Shown here: one piece after another, positions 4,561-12,763 of the stretch
How the letters are laid out: the number at the start of each line of letters is the position of its first letter
How positions within the stretch are numbered: position 1 is the stretch's first letter
Assembly: GCA_002435585.1 (NCBI GenBank)
Contig: DJDY01000121.1
Span: 1 to 12,858, forward strand
Reading direction: 5' to 3'
Length of the DNA stretch: 12,858 nt
Origin: Lachnospira sp. UBA5912
Lineage (GTDB): Bacteria; Bacillota; Clostridia; Lachnospirales; Lachnospiraceae
Position numbers and translations under genes: made by a program
The notes under the pieces: model-generated
What the model was told of the DNA's origin: nothing
Database searches by the model: none
What the model saw: only the letters and a program-made list of their open reading frames with translations

Positions 4561-5469
4561 TTAATATTCTGGCATCGATAATATATCCTTTGTTACAATA
4601 CACTCCGGATCTGGTGCAAGCACCTGTCTTACAATATTAAATATTCCTCTGGCATCACATAAAAGGCTGTCTGCTGCGCCAAACTTCACTTTCTTAACTA
4701 CCCCGCAATCTATAAATATCTTGTTAAGCTTGACGAAATCCTCAGATATATGAGGCTGCTGTGCATTATAGTGTTTTCTTACATATACATTTTTATATAT
4801 AACATTTTTTCCTGAAGCGGCATTTTTATCTATATCACCATTATTATATGAGGCAGACTCCTTTTTTAAAATATTACTGAATGCAGACTCTGCTTTATAT
4901 GGTGGGATTTTATTACAATTTTGCGGAATGGCTATCTTTAGTTTAACAGGCATATCCGATAATCTGTTAGGAACATTAAGTACCTCTTCCACACTGTGTA
5001 TATATGTATTTCTTTCATGTCCTACACCGACAAGCAGTATCTTTCCATCTACATACCTAAGCCTGTCATAACAACCACCTGGTGTACATGGTGTATTATT
5101 ATCTTCTTCTCCTGTAAGATATTCTGAAGCGTTCTTACCATATCCTGCCATACTATGGGTTGGATGCAGTGAACGTATCACACCCTCTCTTTTCATAAAC
5201 AGATTAGTTAGTATTCCTACGCATGAAGGTGTCTCAACCGGATTATATACCGGATTATCAGAATTGACATTCTTCCATGTATGCGTTGGAAGTAGTAAAA
5301 GGCCATTATGAAAATATTCCATCCATGCATCAAGCACTGTATCAGCTCTTCTCTCTACCTCTCCTATAGATTTCATAGATGAATGTATGAGTATTGTTTC
5401 ATCTCCTGCAAGCCCCATGTCTTCAAGCTGTTTTATTAAATCTTCTTTTCTATATATTTTATCAGACAT
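4561..5469 (-). CDS. AAC(3) family N-acetyltransferase
   Basis: A 302-residue member of the Antibiotic_NAT family, which contains aminoglycoside 3-N-acetyltransferases and relatives such as YokD that act on other amines using acetyl-CoA. The family core is visible: ILIHSSMKSIGEV (27-38), LLLLPTHTW (57-65), the signature RSLHPTHSMAGYG (99-111) and LLVGVGHERNTYIHSVEE (145-162). The hinge HPTHS and the H-E-R-N-T-x-x-H segment carry the conserved active-site His residues. Residues about 183-224 are a hydrophilic Asn/Lys/Ser-rich stretch that looks like a disordered insert, interrupting the usual spacing before the C-terminal part. A real aminoglycoside resistance role is not shown; chromosomal homologues in gut Clostridia usually have unknown substrates. 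AGGAG at 5476-5480 lies 6 bases before the ATG. A minus-strand TATAAT at plus 5522-5527 is a plausible -10 box. Confidence 0.85.
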   Translation of the reverse strand: MSDKIYRKEDLIKQLEDMGLAGDETILIHSSMKSIGEVERRADTVLDAWMEYFHNGLLLLPTHTWKNVNSDNPVYNPVETPSCVGILTNLFMKREGVIRSLHPTHSMAGYGKNASEYLTGEEDNNTPCTPGGCYDRLRYVDGKILLVGVGHERNTYIHSVEEVLNVPNRLSDMPVKLKIAIPQNCNKIPPYKAESAFSNILKKESASYNNGDIDKNAASGKNVIYKNVYVRKHYNAQQPHISEDFVKLNKIFIDCGVVKKVKFGAADSLLCDARGIFNIVRQVLAPDPECIVTKDILSMPEY

Positions 5470-10952: not shown

Positions 10953-11705
10953 TTAAAAATAAAGTTTTTTATGTAAGTCTTTCATACCATCTATCTCATC
11001 ACACAATTCCCTGCTGGAACACGTAGAACAATCCATCACAAGTCCATTAAATATGTGATTAAGTGAGTCTGTAATCTGTTCCAGCCTGTGCGCCACACTA
11101 CGCAGCAATCCATAATCTGCTGTCTTACTTGTCACGAAATATATCTGTACAGCCTCCACCTCTTTACGCTTTTTATACGCATTTATCATCTCGGAACCTA
11201 TATGTGAAAATGTCATTCCTTTTTCTAATGCCTCTCTTGATACTCTTACTGGTTCTCTCTCCTTAACGGATGATATTCTCATCATATACCCCTTCGGATA
11301 ATTATGATATCTTACATAGTCAACAGCCCGGAGCACTGAATACAACGCTTCCTTATTTTTTTCCTGTATTGTTCTTATATATGACTCATTAAGCCTTATC
11401 AGTGTAAATCTTGCATATGATATATCTTCCGTTATATCTGAAAGATCATCTCCTATAAGATACACTCCATCACTATCAACATACTTATCTGACGTAGTAA
11501 ATGCTATTGAACTGACTGCCTCATTCATACCACCTCCAAGCTCATATGCCATATCACTTCTTAGCACAAGGCTTTCCTGACTGGTAACTTCCCATGATTC
11601 ATCTGGTGAAAGCTCTTTTATATCTCCGCATTGCCCTGACTGGAAATATTCTTTTAATTCTGATATATCTTTATCATAAATACTTATTCTGTATGTGTTA
11701 TCCAT
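10953..11705 (-). CDS. acetyl-CoA synthase (CdhC/AcsB) middle-domain-like protein
   Basis: A 250-residue soluble protein. From memory of Moorella AcsB, it aligns with the middle part of acetyl-CoA synthase: MAYELGGGMNEA (about 52-63) with MYVEMGGNRTPA, DGVYLIGDDLSDI with GKIEVIGPDIDQI, and RVSREALEKGMTFSHIGSEM with RVSKDAVAKGFRFKNYGEIL, followed by VEAVQIYFVTS with VDRVQVTIFTD. It then ends in a Cys cluster, DCSTCSSRELC (Cys226, Cys229, Cys235), where the synthase has the first three Fe-S ligands of its A-cluster. The fourth Fe-S ligand and the Cys-Gly-Cys nickel ligands are absent because the protein stops 15 residues later. It therefore cannot be a working acetyl-CoA synthase; it may hold an Fe-S cluster or zinc. 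It starts 9 bases after the small membrane protein gene and is the third gene of the activase operon. The alignment is recalled, not computed. Confidence 0.65.
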   Translation of the reverse strand: MDNTYRISIYDKDISELKEYFQSGQCGDIKELSPDESWEVTSQESLVLRSDMAYELGGGMNEAVSSIAFTTSDKYVDSDGVYLIGDDLSDITEDISYARFTLIRLNESYIRTIQEKNKEALYSVLRAVDYVRYHNYPKGYMMRISSVKEREPVRVSREALEKGMTFSHIGSEMINAYKKRKEVEAVQIYFVTSKTADYGLLRSVAHRLEQITDSLNHIFNGLVMDCSTCSSRELCDEIDGMKDLHKKLYF

Positions 11706-11714
11706 GTTTATTAG

Positions 11715-11894
11715 TTAGGCCTTTCCACTTTTCCTGTTTCTTCTGTCCCTTGACCAGTTATAATATGCTGTTAAAGGCTTTATAAGCGCTGCAGCAAACT
11801 TCATATCAAGATTAAAGAAGTATATAATAAGCGAAAGTATGAACAACACGATAAATACTACTATTACTATTCCTAATATTTTAAATATAATCAC
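11715..11894 (-). CDS. small single-helix membrane protein, GTG start
   Basis: An unrecognised 59-residue protein. It starts with GTG at 11892-11894, with AGAGG at plus 11903-11907 and an 8-base gap. Residues 2-27 are one long hydrophobic helix (IIFKILGIVIVVFIVLFILS and onward), followed by an amphipathic stretch LDMKFAAALIKPLTAYYNW and a basic tail SRDRRNRKSGKA, which suggests the C-terminus is cytoplasmic. It lies 29 bases after the activase stop and 9 bases before the CdhC-like start, so it is almost surely translated from the same mRNA. It could anchor its partners to the membrane, but that is inference from position only. It is easily missed because of the GTG start and small size. Confidence 0.75.
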   Translation of the reverse strand: MIIFKILGIVIVVFIVLFILSLIIYFFNLDMKFAAALIKPLTAYYNWSRDRRNRKSGKA

Positions 11895-11923
11895 TTTATT
11901 TTCCTCTTTTTGATTATTAAAGG

Positions 11924-12721
11924 CTAGTTTTTAGATGCGTGCAGCCTTGCGTACTCTGCTGCTCCTAGTGCTCCCATAAGCTGTGGGTCTATAGGCAGCT
12001 CTACAACTTTTACCTTAAGCACCTTCTCTATCGCCTGCTTCAACCCTTCATTCTTGGCACATCCGCCAGTAAGAGTAACAGAATCAACAACTCCGGCTTT
12101 TTTTGCCATAACAAAACATCTTTTGGCTACAGAAAGTTCTATGCCGGCCGCTATCTCATCCATCGGCTTTCCTTCACCTACAAGCGATATAACTTCACTT
12201 TCAGCAAACACTGCACACTGCGCTGTTATCGGTATAACATTCTTAGCTGACAGTGAGAGCTTTGAGAATTCATCAAGGCTCATCTCAAAGGCTCTTGCCA
12301 TGGACTCGAAAAACCTTCCAGTTCCTGCTGCACATTTATCATTCATAGCAAAGTTAAGTACTGTTCCATCTGTATCTATGGCAATTCCCTTAACATCCTG
12401 CCCACCTATATCTATGATAGCTTTGACCGATGGGTCTGTCACATGTACTCCCATGGCATGGCAGCTTATCTCTGATATATTCTCATCTGCAAAAGGTACC
12501 TTATTACGTCCATATCCTGTTCCAATAAGATATGCAAGTTCCTCTGTGCTGTCAAGTCCGTCTACCTGGCTTATTGCCACATCGAGGGCATCCTTAGCAC
12601 TTAATACTGGATTGATTCTGCTTCTTTTAGTAACATCTGCCACTATCTTTCCATCTTCATCTAATATTACGCATTTCGTATATGTACTTCCGGCATCACA
12701 GCCGCCATAAAACCTGCTCAT
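11924..12721 (-). CDS. 2-hydroxyacyl-CoA dehydratase activase (BadF/BadG/HgdC family ATPase)
   Basis: A 265-residue ASKHA-fold ATPase of the archerase type. As a homodimer it carries one [4Fe-4S] cluster and uses ATP to push an electron at very low potential into a partner enzyme. Motifs: phosphate 1 GGCDAGSTYTK (6-16), IGTGYGRNKVPF (66-77), phosphate 2 IDIGGQD (103-109), and the adenosine loop LTGGCAKN near the C-terminus. The cluster ligands are Cys130 (NDKCAAGTGRF) and Cys169 (ITAQCAVFAESEV), matching Cys127 and Cys166 of Acidaminococcus HgdC. GGAGG at plus 12726-12730 lies 4 bases before the ATG. Known partners are 2-hydroxyacyl-CoA dehydratases, benzoyl-CoA reductases and double-cubane cluster reductases. 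None is encoded downstream in this operon, and a promoter directly upstream shows that this is the first gene, so its partner is elsewhere or is one of the two unusual downstream products. Confidence 0.93.
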   Translation of the reverse strand: MSRFYGGCDAGSTYTKCVILDEDGKIVADVTKRSRINPVLSAKDALDVAISQVDGLDSTEELAYLIGTGYGRNKVPFADENISEISCHAMGVHVTDPSVKAIIDIGGQDVKGIAIDTDGTVLNFAMNDKCAAGTGRFFESMARAFEMSLDEFSKLSLSAKNVIPITAQCAVFAESEVISLVGEGKPMDEIAAGIELSVAKRCFVMAKKAGVVDSVTLTGGCAKNEGLKQAIEKVLKVKVVELPIDPQLMGALGAAEYARLHASKN

Positions 12722-12754
12722 ATGTCCTCCATATCTTCCTTTTCTTTTGCGCTC

Positions 12755-12763
12755 ATTATATCA
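12755..12763 (-). promoter_or_regulatory. extended -10 promoter of the activase operon
   Basis: On the minus strand the sequence reads TGATATAATG, a perfect TATAAT -10 with the extended TGn motif, 34 bases before the activase ATG. The -35 region (about plus 12778-12783) is poor, which is normal for an extended -10 promoter. Confidence 0.6.

Follow-up and report, generated by a model that had tools for sequence, protein, structure and literature searches.

An operon of Lachnospiraceae joining a predicted ATP-driven, low-potential Fe–S reductase to CooC-type and CdhC-like proteins

Three genes at the edge of a contig

The DNA considered here (the window) is a stretch of 12,858 nucleotides from Lachnospira sp. 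UBA5912 that makes up the whole of contig DJDY01000121.1 (C84 in our numbering). Close to its end three genes are found on the minus strand, coding for an ATP-dependent activase, a small membrane peptide and a protein related to CdhC/AcsB, the acetyl-CoA synthase (ACS), and these are probably the last three genes of an operon of six. An initial annotation of this DNA had described the three genes as a tight operon with its own promoter. The first part holds, as the open reading frames (ORFs) of 250, 59, and 265 aa are separated by gaps of 9 and 29 bases, with the activase start located 137 bases from the window end. The promoter could not be confirmed: the number of promoter-like sites in a scan was 7, where shuffled sequences gave 7.3 ± 2.6, with no minus-strand site upstream of the activase start, and the promoter and terminator scan as a whole revealed nothing exceeding chance. 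The features of the locus are:

10953..11705, minus strand: gene for the CdhC-like protein (250 aa), a stand-alone ACS middle domain with a Cys tail
10971..11030, minus strand: putative metal or cluster motif Cys226-x2-Cys229-x5-Cys235-x9-His245, from conservation
11049..11606, minus strand: ACS middle-domain fold, residues 34–219 of the CdhC-like protein, from the structural match of a predicted model to residues 317–495 of Moorella ACS
11715..11894, minus strand: gene for the membrane peptide (59 aa, one helix, GTG start), hydrophobic at residues 6–24
11924..12721, minus strand: gene for the ATP-dependent activase (archerase, 265 aa), from TIGR00241 and PF01869
12739..12761, minus strand: 23-nt exact identity with the end of contig C199 of the same genome
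12760..12858, no strand assigned: dispersed repeat of about 100 bp that ends the contig, with 23 matches in the same genome

The CdhC/AcsB-like identity first proposed for the 250-residue protein is borne out both by the profile search, with a match to PF03598 (CdhC) of 40.3 bits (E-value 3.7e-10, gathering cut-off 24), and by the structure comparison, in which the predicted fold is that of the AcsB middle domain (AlphaFold2 pLDDT 91.5, and 65–75 beyond residue 220). The match to NF040764 reached 34.7 bits of a cut-off of 800 (E-value 5.9e-9, model positions 310–450), and that to TIGR00316 23.8 bits, below the cut-off of 355.95. A DM-x2-E-x-G motif is found in 78 of 79 relatives. The Cys-x2-Cys-x5-Cys end and the lack of nickel ligands were also correctly recognised: the three tail Cys are invariant (80/80 aligned sequences, and 120/120 among the homologues listed), and the CGC motif of the ACS nickel site is absent from all 79 relatives, in contrast to its presence in 28/28 full-length ACS ORFs compared (from 30 loci, two being outside the length filter). 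The tail His is found at the exact spacing in 78/79 loci and in 118/120 among the homologues listed, and a distant member (L132) keeps the tail Cys but not the His. The structural alignment ends at 219/495, and the C226xxC229 pair follows a few residues later, near the CxxC of ACS, with a following spacing of x5 versus x8; no aligner spans the motif. Since the hhalign alignment of the CdhC-like family with ACS also stops ahead of the Cys tail, any homology between this tail and the A-cluster motif is at most putative. Several relatives bear the source names "carbon monoxide dehydrogenase" (CODH) or CODH/ACS beta subunit, but we found no support for the activities that these names imply, which bears on how such proteins are labelled in databases.

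The activase exceeds the cut-off of TIGR00241 (219.9 bits versus 125.4), matches PF01869 with 195.6 bits, and has as solved relatives MbdQ (9gai_D, E-value 3.2e-58) and the activator 1hux (E-value 2.7e-55). It is thus a dedicated ASKHA-type activase, as in the archerase systems of the class I benzoyl-CoA reductase (BCR), 2-hydroxyacyl-CoA dehydratase (HAD) and double-cubane (DCCP) family. Elsewhere in this genome, two activase-type matches fall in one 1470-aa frame (G000:C103:952-2733), which codes for another, long protein of archerase type. Family searches with the 59-aa peptide gave no match above a cut-off, and its FNLDxK motif is strictly kept (F27, N28, L29, D30, and K32 in 74/74 aligned sequences). 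Its single strong hydrophobic stretch agrees with the annotation as a membrane protein, and the module may, as was also suggested, be tethered to the membrane.

The upstream half of the operon

The idea of an activase operon with no dehydratase subunit proved to be an artifact of the contig edge. Two proteins of the PF06050 family, which we call HGD1 and HGD2, are encoded outside the window on contig C199, whose last 23 nt are identical to positions 12739–12761, and their genes stand upstream of the activase in related genomes. In operon order, C199 reads CooC-like ATPase, HGD1 (404 aa), HGD2 (512 aa from ATG), and then the overlap, which runs into the activase leader. The sister genome G008 has CooC-HGD1-HGD2-activase-CdhC on a single contig, and the locus of L. 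rogosae ATCC 27753 (L002) presents the same order, membrane peptide included. The terminal repeat, corresponding to the last 99 bases of the window, has its 23 genomic matches (its own place included) at 75–100% identity over part or full length, and shows no significant hairpin (z −0.74). It may reflect an insertion in this strain, placed between HGD2 and the activase, or a branch in the assembly, and could represent a small mobile element or one of REP type.

Both proteins pass PF06050 (cut-off 28.4), HGD1 with 289.9 bits and HGD2 with 133.5 bits. HGD1 aligns with all six cluster Cys of BzdN (6/6), each present in 50–51 of 51 relatives, and is predicted to hold an [8Fe-9S] cluster. The cut-offs of NF040772 (double-cubane-cluster reductase, 350; 139.2 and 44.7 bits), TIGR03190 (Bzd benzoyl-CoA reductase, 453.8; 100.8 bits for HGD1), and NF052455 and NF052456 (2-hydroxyisocaproyl-CoA dehydratase, 750 and 700; 22.3 and 83.5 bits) were not reached; for HGD1 the double-cubane and BzdN models come out on top, and the dehydratase models rank lower. 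HGD2 has the O-type partner fold, with only 15% identical residues when it is aligned by structure with the Bzd chains, and its hhalign match to HGD1 is weak (probability 38.6). Beside the usual cluster ligands, HGD2 has extra Cys residues, C201 (58/60), C205 (57/60), and C369 (59/60), the exceptions being L066, which lacks C201, L076 and L077, which lack C205, and L078, which lacks both. The CooC-like protein carries the CYC (Cys-Tyr-Cys) metal site and the deviant Walker A motif GKGGVGKT of CooC nickel ATPases.

Several genomes have more than one HGD2: four copies in G199, three in G238 and G252, and two in G034, G036, G081, and G153. Second HGD1–HGD2 pairs, 33–54% identical to those of the window's genome, are found at L123 (G234), L124 (G252), L125 (G238), and L129 (G081), and by their sequences are predicted to be paralogous reductases within one genome. 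A small one-helix-looking peptide is encoded beside the second pair in L123, L124, and L125. At another paralogue (L117:570-2629), the HGD1–HGD2 genes are adjoined by two CobW-type GTPases, one with a DUF1980_C domain, and by a protein that resembles chloride channels by eye.

Conservation and co-occurrence

We compared 79 related loci, taking up to 5000 bases per side; many are cut by contig ends. The counts are of direct matches, because a greedy choice of ORFs misses some genes, such as short peptides and, in L151 and L152, the CdhC-like gene. The CdhC-like gene is found in 79, the activase in 75, the membrane peptide in 73, HGD2 in 68, HGD1 in 59, the CooC-like gene in 58, an oxidoreductase in 34, and HypA in 33. 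The proposed neighbourhood of activase, membrane peptide, and CdhC-like gene is well conserved, these being consecutive matches in 70/79 loci, and the complete six-gene order is present in 49/79, with three more lacking the match to the peptide. In each of the four loci missing the activase, fewer than 500 bases are available upstream of the CdhC-like gene. HGD2 is absent from five loci with about 5 kb upstream (L011, L022, L034, L037, and L054), and was located elsewhere in all five genomes. In L076 and L077 the gene order is rearranged. A kinase-like gene (~170–195 aa) stands upstream of the activase in L037, L044, L046, L049, L052, and L053, indicating that the activase-peptide-CdhC block is separable from the HGD pair; that of L044 resembles, by eye, a P-loop protein of the chloramphenicol-phosphotransferase type.

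In a survey of 299 genomes of the family (E-value < 1e-50 for the full-length short CdhC-like protein and ≤ 1e-30 for HGD2), both proteins were found in an identical set of 24 genomes (~8%), the window's own included. This strict co-occurrence with HGD2 explains the activase by a dehydratase-type partner, against the initial view. The three products are parts of one conserved module, in line with the earlier proposal that they act together. Five further genomes match the CdhC-like profile only through ACS frames of 717–729 aa. The full-length CdhC-like protein is single-copy in all 24 genomes, with a second fragment in G034 and G062. Full-length ACS is present in 37/299 genomes and absent from 23 of the 24 operon genomes; the one overlap (G026) compares with 3.0 expected (p = 0.17, a value that, like the Fisher test below, ignores genome kinship), and we make no claim of mutual exclusion. 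A phylum survey, also of 299 genomes, gave 47 with a match, the short form occurring only in the window's genome and in G457, and the remaining matches lying in frames of at least 416 aa, nearly all above 700 aa. G457 lies outside the family; there the short CdhC-like protein is accompanied by a CooC-like gene, HGD1, HGD2, and two activases. Among the independent hints at a functional link, we consider this the strongest. The operon is also present in named gut and rumen isolates, e.g., of Pseudobutyrivibrio and Butyrivibrio, and its distribution suggests a widespread low-potential enzyme system in the Lachnospiraceae.

A strong HypA (E-value ≤ 1e-20) is found in 19/24 operon genomes versus 62/275 others (Fisher p = 3.9e-8), and is missing from 5/24. 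In a subset of loci (L062:5810-8626 and relatives), a FAD/Fe–S oxidoreductase of ~940 aa, often followed by HypA, is encoded directly downstream of the operon. This protein looks like the IsrA/FoxRed group, and an IsrA–HypA association is described in a passage of PMC10134865, so HypA probably belongs to the neighbouring oxidoreductase. Elsewhere in the window, ORF 4561-5469 resembles, by eye, the aminoglycoside N(3)-acetyltransferase family, and its neighbours resemble MATE transporters and a GDSL esterase.

Proposed function and alternative explanations

Gene content, synteny, co-occurrence, conserved ligand positions, and predicted folds are the observations from which we propose, with a probability of about 0.6, that the three genes of the window belong to a six-gene operon, of which they form the downstream half, and that this operon encodes an Fe–S reductase of the BCR/HAD/DCCP family, driven by ATP and working at very low potential, with CooC-type and CdhC-like accessories. 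From these families we infer the ATP-driven electron flow and the cluster types: the activase would hydrolyse ATP and drive single electrons into HGD1, which would store them on an [8Fe-9S] double-cubane cluster and hand them to HGD2, whose own cluster would be the active site. The role of the CdhC-like protein, the metal, and the substrate are guesses. The CooC-type ATPase and the CdhC-like protein would be dedicated accessories: the former would load a metal, and the latter, a subunit docked to HGD1 and HGD2, would handle CoA or a cluster. The substrate would perhaps be a CoA ester. A passage of PMC12289521 reports that the corresponding ACS domain interacts with CoA in C. autoethanogenum, and docking of CoA or a CoA ester would therefore be reasonable by analogy; the chief competing role would be to handle a cluster or a metal. 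The new and puzzling feature is the regular inclusion of a CooC-type ATPase, together with an ACS middle-domain protein, in a system of this kind.

Several points weigh against this proposal. Substrate, metal, and activity of the system are conjectural, and all roles are predicted, that of the CdhC-like protein by analogy only. HGD2 has Ser212 where the catalytic His131 of BzdO would fall (a position taken from a range-end offset only), Zn, and not Ni alone, is found in sites of the CooC type, and the resemblance to the IsrA–HypA pair weakens HypA as a sign of nickel. Because the genomes counted for co-occurrence are related, the cases are not independent of one another, and G457 has a full-length ACS (752-aa frame, other contig) that its CooC-like gene could serve. 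HGD2 was not seen in G603 (the genome of L058), one of 12 genomes checked (another of these, G602, is probably the same genome as G034 of the family survey, given identical HGD2 coordinates); L008 and L035 lack HGD1 and CooC beside HGD2, and L037 lacks the HGD pair and CooC. The genes neighbouring the operon and the HGD paralogues, whose families were recognised by eye, reveal no common catabolic pathway, and the C199–C84 join in this metagenome-assembled genome rests on the 23-nt overlap and the relatives.

A plausible, if less favoured, explanation is that the CooC-like and CdhC-like proteins are a scaffold and insertase pair that builds or repairs the unusual cluster of HGD1 or of HGD2 and has no catalytic part. 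HGD2 is multicopy in several genomes and the full-length CdhC-like protein single in all 24, as for a shared factor, so more than one HGD pair may depend on the same two accessories, and the three invariant tail Cys resemble a cluster- or metal-holding site. However, cluster or metal binding by the pair is itself predicted, a second CdhC-like fragment occurs in G034 and G062, and to our knowledge BzdNO and HadBC are active without CooC-like or CdhC-like genes, which counts against a pure maturation role. We think it rather unlikely that CooC and the ACS middle domain equip the double-cubane enzyme with a nickel or other hetero-metal site new to the superfamily. Nickel, equally doubtful, would be loaded by CooC into HGD2 (Cys201/205/369) or onto the CdhC-like tail. 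The CYC motif of CooC, the near-invariance of these Cys (58/60, 57/60, and 59/60), the CobW-type GTPases beside the L117 paralogue, and the enrichment of HypA would fit, but CooC binds Zn too, L066, L076, L077, and L078 lack one or both of C201 and C205, five of the 24 genomes have no strong HypA, and HypA follows an oxidoreductase resembling that in the part of the isr literature cited above (PMC10134865).

An ordinary (R)-2-hydroxyacyl-CoA dehydratase with hitch-hiking genes is improbable: PF06050 plus an activase is its hallmark pair, but HGD1 prefers the double-cubane and BzdN models over the dehydratase models, inspection of the surrounding genes (families judged by eye) picked out neither a CoA-transferase nor an enoyl-CoA reductase, and CooC and the CdhC-like protein accompany the set in G457, outside the family. 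Least credible of all is that the operon replaces a missing CODH/ACS in Lachnospiraceae that fix CO2 into acetate without the canonical genes. It does bring together an ACS middle domain, CooC, and low-potential electrons, and passages of PMC7000372 describe CODH activity and 13C-bicarbonate labelling in cultures of "Ca. Galacturonibacter soehngenii" without CODH/ACS genes, and list P. xylanivorans and B. fibrisolvens, to which the operon loci L020 and L027 belong, among partial-pathway species. However, the nickel-site CGC is absent, and in G144, taken as "Ca. G. soehngenii", the CdhC-like and HGD2 profiles that find the 24 other genomes give no match at E-value ≤ 0.001. If G144 is that organism, the operon is refuted as its missing CODH/ACS.

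Significance and comparison with known systems

Few biological systems reach potentials as low as those of BCR/HAD-type enzymes, some of which have unexplained roles, and to these the operon adds an accessory-rich branch in ~8% of the sampled family genomes. It joins parts of nickel enzymes to a double-cubane-type enzyme, which opens the metal content, the substrate, and the part played by the ACS domain to direct tests. If a hetero-metal archerase were confirmed, many gut Lachnospiraceae would be equipped to reduce a substrate that ferredoxin cannot reach. In the open literature searched, we found no paper describing the operon, consistent with the initial view of an undescribed module, although most subscription papers and bioRxiv lie outside that coverage.

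Among known systems, the isr operon (IsrA/FoxRed oxidoreductase with HypA/HypB) shares with these loci the oxidoreductase (34/79) and HypA (33/79), but as neighbours in a subset only, and homology of this oxidoreductase to IsrA itself is putative. CODH/ACS has in common the middle-domain fold of AcsB/CdhC, the DM-x2-E-x-G motif (78/79), and a CooC/AcsF-type protein with CYC, whereas the CdhC-like protein is devoid of the N-terminal domain and of CGC, and 23/24 operon genomes have no full-length ACS. The 2-hydroxyacyl-CoA dehydratases (HadBC with HadI, HgdAB with HgdC) also combine two PF06050 proteins with an activase, but here all six cluster Cys are retained in HGD1, the operon has additional accessory genes, and no fermentation gene set was noticed. 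The Bzd-type class I benzoyl-CoA reductase (BzdNO with BzdPQ) shares the [8Fe-9S] ligand set in the N-type subunit, the O-type partner fold, and the activase, but HGD2 is 15% identical to the Bzd chains, and the operon has one activase (two in G457) and adds the CooC-like, CdhC-like, and membrane peptide genes. Finally, DCCP with DCCP-R, whose biological function is called unknown in a passage of PMC11971306, likewise pairs a double-cubane-type subunit with an activase and gives the best NCBIfam match (NF040772, below its cut-off), whereas the operon codes for two different subunits, not a homodimer, together with its accessory genes.
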